From contig JAFGCO010000035.1 of NCBI GenBank assembly GCA_016932575.1, positions 1 to 53,744 on the forward strand: a stretch of DNA of 53,744 bases, written 5' to 3'. The position numbers and the translations under genes were made by a program. The notes under the pieces are model-generated. The model searched no databases and was not told where the DNA came from. It saw nothing but the letters and a program-made list of their open reading frames with translations. This DNA is from a bacterium. GTDB lineage: Bacteria > Zhuqueibacterota > QNDG01 > JAFGCO01. Of this stretch, positions 35,297-48,179 are shown piece after piece (positions within the stretch are counted from its first letter, which is position 1; each line of letters begins with the position of its first letter).

Positions 35297-36289
35297 ATGA
35301 AAGAATCCTGTCACAAGCAGCATGTCAGGTATCACATGATCTTGGTGAAAACAGGCGTAATTATCATGCTTATGTTACTGTTAATAACGCCTTCAACAGG
35401 TCAGACAGTCAAAAAAACACAGGGGATCATCAATGCCGCAACCATCCCCTATAATGCTTCAGGCCTGGCAGCCGGAGAGGCACAGGCAGCTGTATCCGAA
35501 GGCCTGTCCTCTGTTTACTGGAATCCGGCCACTCTTAATGCAACAAAAAAGGAAATTTTGATATCTTACAGGCCTTTCAAAGAGAATATGTCAATATCGT
35601 TTTTCGGTATGGGAGTATCCCTGCGAAAATATGGTGGTATCTTTATCGCCACCAGCAAGTATGCAAACAGCGAAGATGCCTACTCCTCTGACAATCCGGC
35701 AATGCTTCAATATCAATTCGGATATGTCAATCAGCCCCTGCGATGGTTTGTACTGGGGGCCGTCCTTAAATATGTGGAGGCGGATCTTGTCGACACCAAA
35801 CGAAGCAGGTTGGTCTGCGATTTGGGTATATTGGTAAAAACACCATTGTTTTCCCGTAGGGACAATCCCTCTGAAGGATTGAACCTGGGATTTTCTATCT
35901 CAAATCTGGGTGATAATAATATGAAAAGTGCTGTCACTGATTTGCGGTATGAGATTCCCCAAACGATTCGTTTGGGTTTATCGGCGGCTCCTTTAAAAAT
36001 TCACGGGAATACAATACGCTTCTCAGCCGATGCGGTCCATCCTCAGCAAGAGCCGGAGCACATGAACCTGGGCATAAAAATAATGACCAACCGACAAAAA
36101 CGGAATTCGCTTTATGTTTCTATAGGAGCGAAAATGCCTTTCAAAGAAGACAATTATGGCGGCTTTTCCTGTGGTATCGGATCAAGAATTAAACTCATCA
36201 ACAATTTAAAGCTGAGCGTACAATACGCATTTACCGATTGGAAATCTGTTGATGGAAATCATTGCTTTGGTCTGGGACTTATACTTTAA
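35297..36289 (+). CDS. PorV/PorQ-family outer-membrane protein
   Basis: The product is 330 residues. A signal anchor (VIIMLMLLLITPSTG) is followed by the family's opening pattern ASGLAAGEAQAAVSEGLSSVYWNPATLNA. Repeated beta-strands and a C-terminal strand QYAFTDWKSVDGNHCFGLGLIL follow. It resembles the PorV/PorQ group linked to type IX secretion in FCB bacteria, and is shorter and more divergent than the copy at 18298-19374. AAAGGAGG lies 8 nt before the ATG, an unusually strong site. It is the only plus-strand gene in the central part of the window and stands alone, ended by a hairpin terminator. Confidence 0.75.
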   Translation: MKESCHKQHVRYHMILVKTGVIIMLMLLLITPSTGQTVKKTQGIINAATIPYNASGLAAGEAQAAVSEGLSSVYWNPATLNATKKEILISYRPFKENMSISFFGMGVSLRKYGGIFIATSKYANSEDAYSSDNPAMLQYQFGYVNQPLRWFVLGAVLKYVEADLVDTKRSRLVCDLGILVKTPLFSRRDNPSEGLNLGFSISNLGDNNMKSAVTDLRYEIPQTIRLGLSAAPLKIHGNTIRFSADAVHPQQEPEHMNLGIKIMTNRQKRNSLYVSIGAKMPFKEDNYGGFSCGIGSRIKLINNLKLSVQYAFTDWKSVDGNHCFGLGLIL

Positions 36290-36369: not shown

Positions 36370-37137
36370 TTAAATATCTCCTCTGACAATCTGAATAAAA
36401 AGCACAGAACCTATCACACTGTCGTCTCTGTTCAGTATGGGATTTCCCCGAACCTTGACGGGGATTTTCGATCTTCTTCGCGTGATCATTGAAATATTCT
36501 CGTTGAATGAAACATGAATAACGGACTGCAAAATCTGAGAACTCGGATGAGTTATGTTCTCCTTTGTATCAGAACATACAAAATGAAGCACTTCGTCAAT
36601 CATGACATCTTTCACTTCTTTTGCTTCATAACCAATGAGCAGTTCAGCATGCGTATTCATCCACTTTATACGGCCGACTTGATCGGTCGTGATAATCGCT
36701 TCATTCATACTGTTGAGCAGGCTTGACAGCCAATATTCCTTTTCCCGAATGTCTTTCTCCATGTAATAATGATTCAACGCAATCATGATTGAGGCACGCA
36801 AATCATAATCATTAAATGGCTTGGTAATAAAATTATAGGGATGGGTTTTCTTTGCCCGGCTCAGTGTGTTCATATCAGAATACGCGGTCAGATAAACAAC
36901 TGGAATATCATAAATTTTATGGATATCTTCGGCAGTCCTGATACCATCATAGTCCCCCTTGAGCTTAATGTCCATGAGAACCAAATCCGGACGGGAGCTC
37001 ACCACATAATCGATGGCCTCATGGTACGAAGCAGCAAGTCCGATCACTTCATAACCCACTTCCTTAAGAGAATTTTCAATCTCCAAAGCCGTGATCTCCT
37101 CATCTTCTACAACCAAAATTTTCGCGTCATCGTACAC
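36370..37137 (-). CDS. Response regulator with receiver + PAS domains
   Basis: The product is 255 residues. The receiver domain covers about 5-125 with acidic pocket VVEDEE, phospho-acceptor Asp56 in LVLMDIKL, YLTAYSD and the Lys in FITKPF. A PAS domain follows (ILSSLLNSMNEAIITTDQVGRIKWMNTHAELLIGYEAKEV), ending in FIQIVRGDI. There is no DNA-binding or enzymatic output domain, so it probably signals by protein contact. The start is a GTG with AAGGAGG about 8 nt before it. It sits 12 nt downstream of a HisKA_2-type kinase gene, its likely partner, as last gene of the receptor-YfiR-kinase-regulator operon. Confidence 0.92.
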   Translation of the reverse strand: MYDDAKILVVEDEEITALEIENSLKEVGYEVIGLAASYHEAIDYVVSSRPDLVLMDIKLKGDYDGIRTAEDIHKIYDIPVVYLTAYSDMNTLSRAKKTHPYNFITKPFNDYDLRASIMIALNHYYMEKDIREKEYWLSSLLNSMNEAIITTDQVGRIKWMNTHAELLIGYEAKEVKDVMIDEVLHFVCSDTKENITHPSSQILQSVIHVSFNENISMITRRRSKIPVKVRGNPILNRDDSVIGSVLFIQIVRGDI

Positions 37138-37149
37138 CGGTCCACCTCC

Positions 37150-38682
37150 TTATTCGATAATAAATTCAATGGTAAATATCGTGCCCCCGTTTATTTCAAC
37201 TGAGATTTCACCTCGCAGCTGCCGGACCAAAGCATTCACCAGCTTGAGCCCCAGTGACTCTGTTGAAAGAGACTCGATATCTGAAGGAAGTCCCACACCG
37301 TCATCCTGAATGGTGAATATGTATTTCTTCTTATTCAAATCTTCAGTGGGTGCGCCGTTCACCCGGGCCAAACTGATTTTAATTTTACCCTGATCCCGAT
37401 CAATAAATGCATATTTCAGTGAGTTCGATACAAGCTCAGTAATCAGCAATCCACAGGGGATCGCTGTATTTAAATCAAGATGCGCTTTCTCCATCTCGAT
37501 TTCCAATTTGATTTTTTTGGTCGGATTATTATAAATATAAAACAGGTGTTTTGTTAAAGAAAGAACATATTCCTGAAAATCAATATTCGAGAAATCTTCT
37601 GACCGATATAACTGTTCATGAATGAGGGCCATCGTATGAACACGATTATGACAATCCTGAAAAAGGGTCATTGTATCAGGATCATCAATATGGCGCAGCT
37701 GAAGCTTCAGAAGGCTTGAAATAATCTGAAGATTATTTTTAACACGATGATGAATTTCCTGAAGAAGAATGTTCTTTTCATCGAGACTGCGTTTAATCTC
37801 TTTTTCAACTTTTCGTCGTTTCTTAAGTTCATTCTTTAATTTCTCGGTCTGCTTTTCCAATTGTACCGAAGTTTCCTGTATGGTATTATCCCTGTACTCG
37901 ATTTGTGAGAGCATATCATTAAAACTTTCAATCAATAGCCCGATTTCATCTTTTGAAAATTTATCTGCACGAATTGAATAATCCCTTTCGGTTGAAACAC
38001 GTTTGGCCAGCAGGGATAAATACGAAATGGGTTTGGTAATAAAATATTGCAGCTTTGCCGTGAGCAAATAAATGACCAGAAATGATATTAACATAACAGC
38101 GGCCATTGCAGTAATTGAATTCTGAAACCGCTCTTCAATCGCCGTAAGATCTGTCTCGAGATAAACCATGCCGATCAATTCATTATCAAGAACAACAGGA
38201 TGGAACAGTGCAAGACGATTTTCCAGAAACAAGTGATATTTCCTGGATAAAAGGGTGTGTGGCAGTCGATTTGATTCAATATAAGTTATATTAAGATAAT
38301 GTTCCACGGTTTTCTGAATCATCTGTTTTGACTGAAGAGAATCGACATCTGAACGCCGATAGGACGTCAGCTGAGATCCGTCGGCTGTATAGATCTTGCC
38401 TGAACGAATACTTGGATGCGCTTTAAGGGCCGAAACAATTTCTTCAGCATCGCTGGGAATATTAAAAAGGAGAGAGGCCGTACAATTACTGCCGATCATT
38501 TCGGCCAGAATTTCAAGATCACGTACCAGTTGCCTCCTGTAGTGAATCCTGTCATAGGTAAGAAAAGCAACAAATGCCATCAATAATGACAGGCCACTGA
38601 CCATTAAAACCAGTGATATCAATTTCCTCTTAAACGATATGTTTGACAAACCCGGCATTTTATTGAATATACCCATTTTCAT
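37150..38682 (-). CDS. Sensor histidine kinase, CHASE8-like + HAMP + HisKA_2 + HATPase
   Basis: The product is 510 residues. TM1 is at about 20-43 (LISLVLMVSGLSLLMAFVAFLTY). The periplasmic domain (RQLVRDLEILAEMIGSNCTASLLFN, HPSIRSGKIYTADGSQLTSY) reads like the CHASE8 sensor of YfiN-type diguanylate cyclases. TM2 is near 191-210 (AAVMLISFLVIYLL), then HAMP and a Lys/Glu-rich coiled coil. The kinase core EIHHRVKNNLQIISSLLKLQ has its phospho-acceptor His at about 312. The HATPase shows ELVSNSLKYAF and QDDGVGLP. It overlaps the yfiR-like gene by 4 nt (ATGA), so the periplasmic regulator and its sensor are co-translated. Confidence 0.9.
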   Translation of the reverse strand: MKMGIFNKMPGLSNISFKRKLISLVLMVSGLSLLMAFVAFLTYDRIHYRRQLVRDLEILAEMIGSNCTASLLFNIPSDAEEIVSALKAHPSIRSGKIYTADGSQLTSYRRSDVDSLQSKQMIQKTVEHYLNITYIESNRLPHTLLSRKYHLFLENRLALFHPVVLDNELIGMVYLETDLTAIEERFQNSITAMAAVMLISFLVIYLLTAKLQYFITKPISYLSLLAKRVSTERDYSIRADKFSKDEIGLLIESFNDMLSQIEYRDNTIQETSVQLEKQTEKLKNELKKRRKVEKEIKRSLDEKNILLQEIHHRVKNNLQIISSLLKLQLRHIDDPDTMTLFQDCHNRVHTMALIHEQLYRSEDFSNIDFQEYVLSLTKHLFYIYNNPTKKIKLEIEMEKAHLDLNTAIPCGLLITELVSNSLKYAFIDRDQGKIKISLARVNGAPTEDLNKKKYIFTIQDDGVGLPSDIESLSTESLGLKLVNALVRQLRGEISVEINGGTIFTIEFIIE

Positions 38683-39242
38683 TCATCGACAATCTGTGCG
38701 ACCCTCAGCAGCCTCGCACTGATTTCCAATTGGGCATTATCGACAGCCTTACGATTAATCACAAGTCTCAAACGATTGTCTTCTATATAAAAATAAATCA
38801 TCCCCCCAATCCGGCAAAAATAACCGGCATCGCTGATCGTTAAAATCGGATTTTTCTGAACAATTCCAATTGTAGCAATCTGATGTCGCCTCTCAATATC
38901 TCCGAAATATACAACATGGCAATCCTGAGCATCTTCAGGCTGCTCAAGAATTTTAATCGTGATCGATCTTGAATCAATGGTTCGGTTGCGAATAATATTT
39001 CGGAGATCCTGTTCAACCGGACTGAAATGAAAGATGCCGATTGTAATCGGCTGATGATCGTTTTCAAAAGCATGTCCGGGCCATTTGACGAATTTCAGAA
39101 AATTATAAAGGTAGGCAGCCCGCACCTGATACTCTGTAAGAGTTTCTGCTTGAGGTGCCAGAGAAAACACAAAGAAAGAGAGGCACAATAATATGCAAAG
39201 GGCATGCTTCATCATACACTCATCATTGGCGCCAGATGACAT
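38679..39242 (-). CDS. YfiR-family (DUF4154) periplasmic regulator
   Basis: This 187-residue protein has a signal peptide (ALCILLCLSFFVFSLAPQAE) and the DUF4154/YfiR pattern: EYQVRAAYLYNFLKFVKWPGHAF, ITIGIFHFSPVEQDLRNI, CHVVYFGD, GIVQKNPILTISDAGYFCRIGGMIYFYIEDNRLRLVINRKAV. Known YfiR binds and represses the periplasmic domain of the diguanylate cyclase YfiN and is redox- and envelope-stress sensitive. Here the next gene is a histidine kinase with a YfiN-like sensor part, so repression of that kinase is the natural inference. The ATG overlaps the TonB-receptor stop (TAATG); ATGs at codons 10-11 would give a cleaner signal peptide. Confidence 0.9.
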   Translation of the reverse strand: MSSGANDECMMKHALCILLCLSFFVFSLAPQAETLTEYQVRAAYLYNFLKFVKWPGHAFENDHQPITIGIFHFSPVEQDLRNIIRNRTIDSRSITIKILEQPEDAQDCHVVYFGDIERRHQIATIGIVQKNPILTISDAGYFCRIGGMIYFYIEDNRLRLVINRKAVDNAQLEISARLLRVAQIVDE

Positions 39243-41245
39243 TAAAACCTGAATTCTACCGTTGTGTACAATCCCCTCTGGGGATATGTATATTGTGTAT
39301 AATCCAATTCGGGTTTGAATTCTAATACCTTGTCGTGTAATAAATTCTGTCCGACAACAGCGATCTGTAAAAATTTTAAAGGTTTCCAGCCGAATCGTAT
39401 ATCCATATTCCAGTATTCCGGAATTGACAGTTCCCAGACAGAGTCCATATAATGAAGGTTGAAGAAAAAATCCAATGATGAAGATAAATTCAATTTAGAT
39501 TGTATCCCGGCCATATGCGTTGGACATTGCCCCTCATAATTTACCGGTGTGCCTGTATCTGTACTCCCCGGGAGAAGATACATGTCCAGTTTTATGAATG
39601 AATAAATCAGATTCAGGTGCCATAACTGAGACACTTTGATCTCCGAAAACATTTCAAAGCCAAATCCATGTCCCGCCACTTTATTGTCGGTTAACAGGGG
39701 CATGACCCAATGCTCAGGATCCGAATCGGTTTCAAAATATGGATCTTTTAAAAATCCTGAAAATAAATGATTATATTGATTATAGAAGGTGGCAATATCC
39801 AAATAAATACGATTCGAAGGAGACCATCGCCATCCCGTTTCATAGGCAATCAGGGTTTCCGGACGAAAATCCGGATTTCCCTGCATTCTCACGACAATCG
39901 GCGTACCCTGAAGCTGATCACTTGTTACCACGTCGGCAATATAATACCCTCCCCTCTCAGCCCTGGCCGGGGTTCTCACTGCACGGGAAACCGCTGTCCA
40001 GAACGTCATTTTTTGATTAGGAATGACAAGCAATCTAATATTGGGCTGAATTTCAAAACCGGAATAGACATTGTGTTCAAATTTTGAACCAAGGGTTACT
40101 CTTAAAAATTCAGGAACAATATGAATGTCATCCTGGATAAACGCGCTCCACAGGGGCAGATTCTTCTTGCTTGGTATCATCGTCATTCTGAACCGATTGT
40201 AATATTGATCCTGATATAATCGATAACCGACTCCTGAAACAAGCTGATGCCGTTTCCCCAGATCAAACAAATAACTGGCATCGATCTCCGTCATTCTGAA
40301 TTGTGCCTTAATAACGCCTTCCTCTCGTTCAGAGAAATCATGGACAACCATGACTTTTAATACGGAAGCATTTGAAAAATACGTTTGCCATGAAGCCAGG
40401 GCATCATACCCTTTGATGTGCCCTTTGTAGTCAATCCAACTTTGATATGGTGGCTCCAGCGAAAGTGTATTCATACGATGTCCAATATGGCCTGAATAAA
40501 CACTCCCGATAAAGGAAAGCTGGTTTTTCGCTGTTGGCTCCCAGTCCCACCTAAGACCGCTACGTAAAACATCCCAGCCATCACACATGGGATCCCCGGT
40601 GCTATCGACAAATCCGTCGCGGTTGAAATACTTCACATACCCGCGATAGTAATAATGATCTCCCAGCTTCCCGCCGTATCTTATATTTCCCGTCTGCTTC
40701 TCTTCGGTGCCTACCCCTGCTTTCAGGATTGTTCCCTGCGTTCCTCTGGTATTTTTTGTGACGATATTGACAATGCCGTTCACTGCATTCGCTCCCCACA
40801 GAGTGGCACCTGGTCCTCGTATGACTTCGATACGATCAATATCTTCCATCATCACATCGTGCATGTCCCAAAAAACACCGGAAAATAAATGATTGTATAC
40901 AACCCGACCGTCAATAAGAACCAGAAGTTTATTCGAGAACCGTCCGATAAATCCGCGTGAAGTAATCGCCCATTTATTGGCATCAATCGCAGCGACTTGA
41001 AAACCAGGCACCAAACGAAGCGCTTCAGGAATACTGGTAACCCCCGAATAATGAATATCCTCCTGAGTAATCACATGCACCGCAGCCGCTGCCTGAAACA
41101 AGCTCTCTTTCTTTCGTGATACCAGTGTCACTTCGATATTGGTTAAATCCTGCAAATCAAATTCAGCCAGATCTTTATTCTGTGCGGAAAGGCTGAAGCA
41201 GACAAAAATACTGATGATGGTAAAAAGGGCCGATCTGTGCATCAT
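39242..41245 (-). CDS. TonB-dependent receptor of the YfiR operon
   Basis: This receptor of about 667 residues has a signal peptide (ALFTIISIFVCFSLSAQ), a short N-terminal segment LAEFDLQDLTNIEVTLVSRKKESLFQAAAAVHVITQEDI and a plug domain with SIPEALRLVPGFQV, FSNKLLVLIDGRVVYN, DIDRIEVIRGPGATLWGANAVNGIVNIVTKNT. The barrel ends GLYTTVEFRF with a terminal Phe. The LVSRKKESLFQAAAAV opening is typical of receptors found beside YfiR-type genes. The ATG at 41245 overlaps the stop of a 46-codon ORF by 4 nt; an in-frame GTG three codons earlier is the alternative. It is the first large gene of the signalling operon. Confidence 0.92.
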   Translation of the reverse strand: MMHRSALFTIISIFVCFSLSAQNKDLAEFDLQDLTNIEVTLVSRKKESLFQAAAAVHVITQEDIHYSGVTSIPEALRLVPGFQVAAIDANKWAITSRGFIGRFSNKLLVLIDGRVVYNHLFSGVFWDMHDVMMEDIDRIEVIRGPGATLWGANAVNGIVNIVTKNTRGTQGTILKAGVGTEEKQTGNIRYGGKLGDHYYYRGYVKYFNRDGFVDSTGDPMCDGWDVLRSGLRWDWEPTAKNQLSFIGSVYSGHIGHRMNTLSLEPPYQSWIDYKGHIKGYDALASWQTYFSNASVLKVMVVHDFSEREEGVIKAQFRMTEIDASYLFDLGKRHQLVSGVGYRLYQDQYYNRFRMTMIPSKKNLPLWSAFIQDDIHIVPEFLRVTLGSKFEHNVYSGFEIQPNIRLLVIPNQKMTFWTAVSRAVRTPARAERGGYYIADVVTSDQLQGTPIVVRMQGNPDFRPETLIAYETGWRWSPSNRIYLDIATFYNQYNHLFSGFLKDPYFETDSDPEHWVMPLLTDNKVAGHGFGFEMFSEIKVSQLWHLNLIYSFIKLDMYLLPGSTDTGTPVNYEGQCPTHMAGIQSKLNLSSSLDFFFNLHYMDSVWELSIPEYWNMDIRFGWKPLKFLQIAVVGQNLLHDKVLEFKPELDYTQYTYPQRGLYTTVEFRF

Positions 41246-41382
41246 ATTCCCCACCGCTTTACATATAATTGATATACTGATTTTATGGATAATGAAAACA
41301 GGAAGTTTAAAGCACGATTGGAAAAAAAATAAAAAGAAACAAGAATGGAATAAAATACAACCCCTTGCAATTGAATTTCCAT
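41242..41382 (-). CDS. Candidate 46-residue hydrophobic small protein
   Basis: This short ORF begins at an ATG (41382) with GGAGGT 9 nt upstream and encodes MEIQLQGVVFYSILVSFYFF..., ending QLYVKRWGI. It has one or two hydrophobic stretches. Its TGA overlaps the ATG of the TonB-receptor gene as ATGA, the same 4-nt overlap seen between yfiR and the kinase gene. No family is recognised. It could be a real membrane peptide or a leader ORF coupling translation to the receptor. The AT-rich composition makes a chance ORF possible. Confidence 0.4.
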   Translation of the reverse strand: MEIQLQGVVFYSILVSFYFFSNRALNFLFSLSIKSVYQLYVKRWGI

Positions 41383-41843: not shown

Positions 41844-45614
<3,771 letters not shown>

Positions 45615-45632
45615 TTATTTTTGAAAAAGACT

Positions 45633-48179
45633 TTATTTCACCAGCATCGCCTTCTGTCTTGCACTATAGCCACCCGCTCTGAGCTCGATAATATAAATTC
45701 CCGACGGCAAACCTTCAGCATCAAAACGAACCCGATGATCCCCTGATGTTTGTTGTTCATCGATCAGTGTGGCGATTTGACTGCCCCGTATATTCAGCAC
45801 ATTCACACGGATCCGATTTTCCATAGACAGGTGATAGCGGATCACACATGCATGATTAAAAGGATTTGGAAAACTTGGATCGAGTTGAAAAATATGAGGT
45901 TGATGATCCGGATGATGCTCAATGTCTGTTCCAGAATCATTTAATATAAATTCGAAATGGTCAAGATTGGGAGCACTCCCCGATTCGAGCCCGGTAATTC
46001 GGAGCACATGCTCGCCGGCGGTAAGATCAAGGACCATGATACCGGAATAAGTCCAGTCTGTCCATTCATCTGTCGGAGAAAAATCAAACGAATCGAAGAA
46101 AACCGATCCGTCCACCTGGATTTCACAGGGACGGTTACTCTCACTGCCATTGGCATAATGGACTCTGACGTTCCATGATCCGGAGGCTGGCAGGTTCAGA
46201 CTCAGTTCCAGGTAAGTACCCGAATAATTTTCAAGGTTGACAAATCCGGCACCGGTGAATCCTGCATGTTCGGTATCCACGGAACCGTCGGATACAAATC
46301 CGTCCTCCGCTTCGAAGGTTATATTGAAATCATTCGGACCGGTTCCGGCATCATGATAACTCCATTCGAGATGATCCAGATTGGGCGCACTGGCAGATTT
46401 CAGGCCGGTGATACGAAGCACATGTTCACCGTCTGAAATCCTCAGGTTCAGAGAATCGGAATACATCCAGGTCGGCCAGTCCCCGGTGGGAAGAAAATCA
46501 AAGGATTCTTTGATGATACGGTCATCCAGCCGGATCTCGCAGGGACGGTTATTTTCTGTGCCGTTGGCATAAAAAAATCTCACGCTCCATGAACCGGATT
46601 CCGGCAGGTTCAGGGTCAATTCAAGATAGGTGCCTGCTTGATTTTCAAGATTGACAAATCCGGTACCGGTAAATCCCGGATGATTGCTGTCTATGGTGCC
46701 GTTCGAAACATATCCCGTTTCCGCCTCGATATAGAACACATCATCTGTGACATTCAGAATGATCGGCGCTGAAGTCGCTGTTTCAGCACTGTCGTCCGTG
46801 GCCGCGGCTGTGATAAGATATTCGCCTTCCGGCGCATCCTGCCAGACGATTTCCCAGGGAGCCTGCTCGTCAACTCCAAGAGATGTATTATTCGCAAAAA
46901 ATTCAACCCGCACGACTTTTCCATCCATATCAATAGCCGTCACCGAAATGGGAATATCCGTACCCGGCCAGGCAGAAGTCGAATCCTGCGGAGACTTGAA
47001 AGTCACGATCGGCGGCCGATTCGTATTCGAATCCATGCCGGACTGCGCCATTTGCCAGCACATCATTAAAAAGGCGCCCAGCCCGTGCTGATCATTGGTA
47101 TTCCGGCTGCGGTTGTAATAATAGGAATAGTCGCTGCTGACTCCGGTTCCCTGGCAGATATCCTTGAGATAGGTCAGACCCTGCGTATCCACAGAAAATT
47201 TGTCGCGCAAAACGCCTTCATAGGCTTTTTCAGCCATCTCTTCATATTCACTGCCCACATAGCCCCTGGCGATGGCCCTGGCTGTAAAATAAGAATACAT
47301 GCACGAACAGGAACTTTCCAGCCAGTTGTCTGTCCGGCCCCCCTGATCCACCACCTGATAAAACAGTCCCGTATCCTCATCCTGCACTTCAGACAGGCCG
47401 TGAATCAGATTGGAGAGGATGGTGATCAGTTCTGCCCGGTCGGCATGATCCTCCGGAATAATTTCCAGCACTTCGATCAGAGCCATGCCGAACCATCCGA
47501 TGGCACGCCCCCAGAACCAGGGAGAATGATGCGTCACCGGATCGGCCCAATCCGAAGAGCCATCCTCATCATAGGCATGAAAAAGCAGCCCGGATTCATA
47601 CTGAAGATGGCTGGCATATGTGATCAGCTGATGGGCGCATTCTGTAAATAACTCGGGCTCATTGAATACCTGGCCATAACGGACCAGAAACGGCAGGACC
47701 ATGTACACGCCGTCGGACCACAATTGGCCCTCTGCCCATTTGTTGTGCCAGAATGCTCCGTCGGAAGTCCTGGGATAGGTATGATAAACCTGCCGGATAT
47801 ACTGAGCCGCCAGTTTGTATTTCTCTTCACCGGTTTCCACATAACACAGCAGAGTGACCAGGCCGGGCTGGGTATTGTCAAGACTGGATATATCCGCATC
47901 AATATTCCCCTGACTGTCCACATGCTGATCCACCCAATCGCGCAGAAACTGAAAATAGGCACCTTCTCCGGTCATTTTCCAGAACCGATATTGTCCGAAT
48001 AAATAGAATCCGCGAGGATAGGCCCAGTTTCCGAAGCTGGAAGGAGGAGACCGCCTCATGGTGGATTCGATGACCTGCTGTGCCCATTCGATTTGACTGA
48101 ACACGTGGCTTGAAAATAATATCAGGACGATTGATAAAACAAGAAGACAGCACCGCATGATTTTTATTCTGTTCATCAT
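45633..48179 (-). CDS. Secreted GH105 unsaturated glucuronyl/galacturonyl hydrolase with two CBM35-like domains and T9SS sorting domain
   Basis: The product is 848 residues: signal peptide, then a GH105 (YteR/RhiN-like) alpha/alpha-barrel to about residue 385 with the catalytic Asp156 in QLWSDGVYMVLPF and HHSPWFWGRAIGWFGMAL. A Big_9-type Ig domain (PPIVTFKSPQDSTSAWPGTDIPISV) follows. Then come two tandem CBM35/CBM6-like domains of clear internal duplication (FYIEAETGYVSNGTID..., FEAEDGFVSDGSVDTEHAG...). The last 75 residues are a T9SS type A-like sorting domain (LDPSFPNPFNHACVIRYHL, LPSGIYIIELRAGG). It removes unsaturated uronic acids left by polysaccharide lyases. AGGAGGTGAC precedes a double ATG. 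Confidence 0.93.
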   Translation of the reverse strand: MMNRIKIMRCCLLVLSIVLILFSSHVFSQIEWAQQVIESTMRRSPPSSFGNWAYPRGFYLFGQYRFWKMTGEGAYFQFLRDWVDQHVDSQGNIDADISSLDNTQPGLVTLLCYVETGEEKYKLAAQYIRQVYHTYPRTSDGAFWHNKWAEGQLWSDGVYMVLPFLVRYGQVFNEPELFTECAHQLITYASHLQYESGLLFHAYDEDGSSDWADPVTHHSPWFWGRAIGWFGMALIEVLEIIPEDHADRAELITILSNLIHGLSEVQDEDTGLFYQVVDQGGRTDNWLESSCSCMYSYFTARAIARGYVGSEYEEMAEKAYEGVLRDKFSVDTQGLTYLKDICQGTGVSSDYSYYYNRSRNTNDQHGLGAFLMMCWQMAQSGMDSNTNRPPIVTFKSPQDSTSAWPGTDIPISVTAIDMDGKVVRVEFFANNTSLGVDEQAPWEIVWQDAPEGEYLITAAATDDSAETATSAPIILNVTDDVFYIEAETGYVSNGTIDSNHPGFTGTGFVNLENQAGTYLELTLNLPESGSWSVRFFYANGTENNRPCEIRLDDRIIKESFDFLPTGDWPTWMYSDSLNLRISDGEHVLRITGLKSASAPNLDHLEWSYHDAGTGPNDFNITFEAEDGFVSDGSVDTEHAGFTGAGFVNLENYSGTYLELSLNLPASGSWNVRVHYANGSESNRPCEIQVDGSVFFDSFDFSPTDEWTDWTYSGIMVLDLTAGEHVLRITGLESGSAPNLDHFEFILNDSGTDIEHHPDHQPHIFQLDPSFPNPFNHACVIRYHLSMENRIRVNVLNIRGSQIATLIDEQQTSGDHRVRFDAEGLPSGIYIIELRAGGYSARQKAMLVK

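Follow-up and report, generated by a model that had tools for sequence, protein, structure and literature searches.

A YfiR-CHASE8 kinase operon beside a TonB-dependent receptor gene: conservation and a proposed trans-envelope signaling role

Results

A four-gene operon encodes a TonB receptor, YfiR, a sensor kinase, and a receiver-PAS protein

The window, by which we mean the whole 53,744-nucleotide stretch of DNA that was analyzed, carries a minus-strand operon of four genes. Open reading frames and Pfam profiles identified a TonB receptor, YfiR, a CHASE8-HAMP-HisKA_2-HATPase kinase, and a receiver-PAS protein, with the following features.

39242 to 41245, minus strand: TonB-dependent receptor with plug and barrel, 667 amino acids from the ATG at 41245 (Pfam, NCBIfam)
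38679 to 39242, minus strand: YfiR-like periplasmic protein, 187 amino acids, with a signal peptide (DUF4154, NF053591, AlphaFold model)
37150 to 38682, minus strand: sensor histidine kinase, TM-CHASE8-TM-HAMP-HisKA_2-HATPase, 510 amino acids (Pfam, NF053592)
38158 to 38538, minus strand: CHASE8 periplasmic domain of the kinase (Pfam, model of the CHASE8-HAMP part)
38464 to 38478, minus strand: ASLLF, kinase residues 69 to 73, the equivalent of the YfiR-docking motif AAVVF of YfiN (alignment)
36370 to 37137, minus strand: response regulator, receiver plus PAS (Pfam)

The receptor and YfiR genes share 1 nt, the YfiR and kinase genes overlap by 4 nt, and the kinase and receiver-PAS genes lie 12 nt apart; the coordinates thus agree with the overlaps and close spacing described in an initial annotation of this DNA. 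The receiver-PAS gene is the end of the operon, and the next gene (35297 to 36289) is convergent. Together they have the appearance of a full relay, from an outer membrane transporter through YfiR to a sensor kinase.

The longest reading of the receptor frame is 39242 to 41254 (minus strand), with the ATG at 41245 being the likelier start. Pfam gave a plug (Plug, 69.8 bits) and a barrel (TonB_dep_Rec, the TonB_dep_Rec_b-barrel profile, 75.0 bits) only, and the plug begins near residue 50 (54 of the longest reading), ~30 residues past the signal peptide. Since it has no STN signaling domain, the receptor is not of the FecA signaling type. Against NF053590 (TonB_dep_TOL0244, "TOL_0244 family TonB-dependent receptor"), it scored 579.3 bits, with 590 of 604 positions covered, and missed the cut-off of 645; by this score, it is a relative rather than an equivalog. 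No riboswitch that might offer a clue to the ligand was matched upstream of the receptor at Rfam gathering scores, and scans for promoters and terminators gave promoter matches close to shuffled expectation. The genes upstream (41844 to 48179, minus strand) code for a GH2 beta-galactosidase that is secreted and has an F5/8C domain, and for a CBM35-containing GH88 enzyme bearing a Por secretion tail; they may hint at a glycan-related ligand for the receptor. Elsewhere in the window, positions 56 to 1987 hold a CRISPR array of 30 repeats matching RF01315 at ~65-nt spacing.

The YfiR-like protein matched DUF4154 (PF13689, YfiR/HmsC-like) with 139.1 bits against a gathering score of 24.9 and passed the cut-off of 125 for NF053591 (YfiR_like_TOL0243, TOL_0243 family) with 145.9 bits. 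Its AlphaFold model (pLDDT of 91) matched crystal structures of Pseudomonas aeruginosa YfiR with a TM score of about 0.7. A plasmid search with the protein returned a single distant match.

In the kinase, a profile search confirmed the CHASE8 domain proposed in the initial annotation (52.7 bits, residues 49 to 175, cut-off of 27), and HAMP, HisKA_2, and HATPase_c scored 33.4, 101.7, and 43.4 bits, respectively. Two transmembrane helices (residues about 19 to 44 and 186 to 216) flank the periplasmic region, and the H-box (EIHHRVKNNLQ), N-box, and G-boxes are all present. The match to NF053592 (HK_near_YfiR_like, "sensor histidine kinase, YfiR-like protein-associated") came in two pieces, and its 195.5 bits are barely above the cut-off of 194. 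The model of the CHASE8-HAMP part (pLDDT of 92) has an extracytoplasmic PAS/Cache fold, with CitA matched at a Z score of about 12.5; CitA is also the protein on which YfiN was modeled in 2012. Likeness to WalK and CitA was rejected as a functional match, the PAS/Cache fold being common to these domains. The receiver-PAS protein (Response_reg, 76.7 bits; PAS, 35.5 bits) retains Asp56, Thr84, and Lys106 of the receiver and has no DNA-binding or catalytic output domain.

All YfiR genes of this genome follow a TonB receptor gene

With a size of 4.41 Mb and a completeness of 94.5%, the assembly contains four YfiR genes, three CHASE8 domains, and 40 plug domains. A TonB receptor gene lies directly before each of the four YfiR genes; taking ~3,700 genes, we estimate the chance of all four falling directly behind one of 40 receptors at near 1e-8. 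The three CHASE8 proteins are without exception HisKA_2 kinases inside YfiR clusters. One further locus (C35) has the order receptor-YfiR-receptor-kinase-hybrid kinase, the last being a REC-PAS-PAS-HisKA-HATPase-REC protein, and another (C14) is a receptor-YfiR-kinase set adjoining an NRPS gene. The fourth YfiR belongs to a receptor-YfiR pair without a kinase (C46; L010:4056-6665). This pair is convergent with genes resembling ExbB/ExbD/TonB-type energy proteins (L010:6707-9545).

Profile searches of the whole assembly, at 94.5% completeness, returned zero matches for GGDEF and PilZ, and the earlier claim that no c-di-GMP enzyme is encoded here holds for the cluster. Neither in this genome nor in the sampled order does any YfiR lie beside a GGDEF protein. 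Absence of GGDEF as a lineage-wide trait was rejected: in 10 of 11 relatives from the same taxonomic order (G001 to G011, with none in G010), exactly one GGDEF match was found, and it lay on a different contig from YfiR. The absence in the window genome may reflect a recent loss of c-di-GMP synthesis or an assembly gap.

YfiR is most often partnered by a kinase

We scanned 84,980 species genomes, which yielded 524 YfiR-encoding stretches from many phyla, and examined the best 80 of these 524 loci. Whole-genome searches found YfiR in 21 of 59 genomes of the window's own phylum, 50 of 200 Pseudomonadota, and 26 of 198 genomes of the Bacteroidota phylum. The resulting census comprises 183 YfiR reading frames (~180 loci, with three loci counted twice and some genomes contributing several), whose neighbors within two same-strand genes were assigned with profiles built in this analysis. 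Taking the best 80 favored sequences similar to the window's YfiR; the remaining sets were chosen otherwise, and they agree.

A CHASE8 kinase was found near 133 of the 183 YfiR frames (123 HisKA and 10 HisKA_2, the latter output being concentrated in the window's phylum), and five frames were YfiR-kinase fusions. A CHASE8-GGDEF protein was near 10; the remainder had a CHASE8 partner without an assigned output (11) or no CHASE8 partner (24). Pseudomonadota alone gave 40 kinases and 1 fusion versus 7 GGDEF partners. Kinase partners prevail, and the kinase version is the form in which the YfiR module commonly occurs among bacteria. The initial annotation had spoken of a kinase "instead of a diguanylate cyclase", implying an oddity; with 133 kinases plus 5 fusions and just 10 GGDEF proteins, that framing is inverted, and the swapping of outputs had already been published in 2012 (PMC3375315).

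The YfiR-to-CHASE8-gene gap has a median of -4 nt and is ≤20 nt in 140 of 145 cases. Surveyed in relatives, the gene order of the window is widely kept. The receptor-YfiR-kinase trio also occurs in the cultured non-pathogens Larkinella soli (L104), Desulfonema magnum (L076), and Methylomonas fluvii (L192 to L194). A TonB receptor gene lies within two genes at 103 of the 133 CHASE8-kinase loci; since the other 30 have none there, the receptor is not obligatory. Two unusual arrangements were also seen. One locus encodes a tandem YfiR-YfiR protein of 437 amino acids before a CHASE8 kinase-receiver gene (L131:6393-7706, minus strand). In three Bacteroidota loci (L215 to L217), the YfiR gene sits between uncharacterized genes for ~356 and 260 to 270 amino acids, without kinase or receptor, which is maybe a different use of YfiR.

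YfiR is predicted to act on the CHASE8 domain of the kinase

Natural fusions, retention of a docking motif, co-divergence, and structure models suggest that the CHASE8 domain of the kinase is the target of YfiR. Fusions of YfiR to a kinase occur in five genomes (L202, L203, L204, and L205 of the Bacteroidota phylum and L152 of Pseudomonadota), with a layout of DUF4154, a long coiled coil, one transmembrane helix, HisKA, and HATPase, plus PAS and REC in some, all domains scoring above Pfam cut-offs. The fused proteins have no CHASE8 domain, which makes YfiR itself their sensor part. In four of the five cases, the fusion gene follows a TonB receptor gene at a distance of 8 to 60 nt. Among the loci examined, no natural fusion of YfiR with CHASE8 turned up.

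In P. aeruginosa, mutations in the A-A-x-x-F patch of YfiN (AAVVF) abolish YfiR binding (PMC3375315). When the window CHASE8 domain was aligned with 138 others from YfiR partners, the docking Phe was present in 99% of the 128 partners of kinase type and in 100% of the 11 of GGDEF type. Against docking in the window itself, its YfiR has Leu at the position of P. aeruginosa Phe162, the central residue of the proposed YfiN-binding surface; Phe is found there in 82% of kinase-type relatives.

Across 86 operons, YfiR distances correlated with those of CHASE8 with an r of 0.825, compared with 0.39 for the kinase core of the same gene and 0.455 for the receptor. The YfiR-CHASE8 partial r was 0.61, a value reached in 0 of 500 permutations. 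This co-divergence fits a unit that exchanges outputs. The CHASE8 tree, with its many long branches, weakly indicates 12 or more output changes; well-supported branches require only 3 of them.

Gene order suggests a link between YfiR and the receptor

TonB_C is a domain that contacts TonB receptors, which makes a CarboxypepD_reg-TonB_C-DUF4154 fusion encoded directly before a TonB receptor gene (L206:6826-8130, minus strand) suggestive. This single case, with a weak DUF4154 score of 29.7 bits, represents a possible physical link of YfiR to TonB-dependent transport. The YfiR-receptor partial r was 0.10, with 16 of 500 permutations as high, and the CHASE8-receptor partial r was 0.22. YfiR-receptor co-divergence is therefore weak after control, and the test does not support direct receptor-YfiR contact. 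The case for a receptor link is one of gene order: 103 of 133 kinase loci, 4 of 5 fusions, and 4 of 4 YfiR genes in this genome. The initial annotation had proposed an envelope-sensing pathway in which receptor state is relayed via YfiR to a phosphorelay. What stands of it is a conserved unit of receptor, YfiR, and CHASE8-HAMP kinase, with several independent lines indicating that YfiR acts on CHASE8; that receptor state is the signal relayed is a putative extension, well motivated by gene order.

Discussion

Proposed mechanism and alternatives

Taken as a whole mechanism, we consider it probable that these genes form a modular YfiR-CHASE8 trans-envelope sensory operon. YfiR would dock on the kinase CHASE8 domain, using the conserved patch A-[AS]-L-x-F, and fix the kinase in one signaling state, a direct interaction that is predicted by analogy with the Pseudomonas YfiBNR work. 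An event at the outer membrane, for which ligand occupancy or transport at the co-encoded TonB receptor is the likeliest candidate, would alter the amount of free YfiR or the conformation of YfiR, and this would switch the kinase through HAMP. The HisKA_2 kinase would then phosphorylate the adjacent receiver-PAS protein, which would pass the signal on by protein contact. We infer the receptor as input, the sign of regulation (repression, as for YfiN), phosphotransfer to the receiver, and output through PAS; our literature search found no published experiments on any kinase-type YfiR.

Alternatively, YfiR could be a periplasmic ligand-binding protein that presents to the kinase a compound imported by the receptor, with no receptor-YfiR contact. 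LuxP for LuxQ and TorT for TorS are precedents for such presentation. The weak YfiR-receptor co-divergence and the lack of an STN domain in the receptor would suit this reading, as would a second resemblance of the YfiR model, to a small substrate-binding protein of Rhodothermus marinus (TM score of about 0.63). P. aeruginosa YfiR bound vitamin B6 and L-Trp in crystals, but the measured affinities are in the tens of millimolar (PMC4887326), and the TonB_C-DUF4154 fusion hints instead at contact with the receptor or TonB; overall, we judge ligand presentation unlikely. We give still less credence to the idea that YfiR senses envelope or redox state in general on behalf of the kinase, with the TonB receptor gene being a target or passenger and not the input. 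Such a role would explain the 30 of 133 kinase-type loci with no receptor within two genes, and disulfides let P. aeruginosa YfiR respond to the periplasmic redox state (PMC4887326). However, mature window YfiR has only two cysteines left, the cysteine set is incomplete in most kinase-type YfiRs, and a receptor is present at 103 of 133 loci and with 4 of 5 fusions, in all phyla sampled. A chance or degenerate cluster of separate, merely adjacent genes is refuted by conservation across phyla, and the four YfiR genes behind TonB receptors in this genome and the intact catalytic motifs also leave it a negligible probability.

Relation to known systems

In YfiBNR, YfiR represses YfiN, a CHASE8-HAMP-GGDEF protein, and in Pseudomonas, YfiB touches YfiR. 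The YfiBNR system of P. aeruginosa (where the partner is also called TpbB), YfiR-DgcN-YfiB of Escherichia coli, and HmsCDE of Yersinia likewise have a YfiR-family gene overlapping a TM-CHASE8(PAS)-TM-HAMP gene, and the docking Phe and YfiR fold are alike in YfiBNR and the window. The output differs, being GGDEF in YfiBNR and HisKA_2/HATPase plus a receiver-PAS protein in the window. YfiBNR also has YfiB, whereas no gene for a YfiB OmpA/Pal-type lipoprotein occurs among the four genes or their direct neighbors, and the TonB receptor takes the place of the outer membrane partner. Under a strict definition of YfiBNR, with a CHASE8-HAMP-GGDEF partner adjoining YfiR, the window operon falls outside the system; it belongs with the modular YfiR-CHASE8 units of Malone et al. 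2012, having CHASE8 at 52.7 bits, the docking Phe in ASLLF, and the 4-nt overlap.

Malone et al. 2012 (PMC3375315) described divergent Yfi systems in which histidine kinases, Hpt, or GGDEF-EAL replace the GGDEF output and YfiB is missing; these share with the window the YfiR and CHASE8/PAS-HAMP core, the kinase output, and the missing YfiB. That paper mentions neither TonB receptors nor fusions nor the frequency of the kinase form. The NCBIfam families NF053590, NF053591, and NF053592, two of whose cut-offs are passed by the window YfiR and kinase, name the same three-gene neighborhood and give no mechanism. FecA-FecR-FecI likewise couples an outer membrane transporter to a trans-envelope signal, but FecA-type receptors have an STN domain, whereas the window receptor has none and is paired with a kinase instead of a sigma factor and anti-sigma factor. 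We found no paper on the receptor-YfiR-kinase trio in the open-access literature searched.

The idea thus dates back to 2012, and NCBIfam already lists the arrangement; the window operon is real, well conserved, and correctly read, and its proposed mechanism is plausible. What seems new here is the proportion that makes the kinase the rule, the YfiR-kinase and TonB_C-YfiR fusions, and co-divergence at the level of domains. The same holds for a genome that combines three YfiR-kinase modules with a lack of detectable GGDEF. We advance more tentatively, seeing nearly as much for it as against it, the broader proposal that TonB receptors signal through YfiR in a widespread phosphorelay trans-envelope pathway distinct from FecA/STN, with YfiBNR being a minority branch in which YfiB stands in for the receptor and GGDEF for the kinase.

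To our knowledge, work on YfiR has dealt almost exclusively with its braking of a single c-di-GMP enzyme in gamma-proteobacteria. The census suggests that control of sensor kinases beside TonB receptors is what YfiR usually does, even in a genome with no detected c-di-GMP enzyme. Should the receptor prove to be the input, a signaling role would be predicted for hundreds of uncharacterized transporters.
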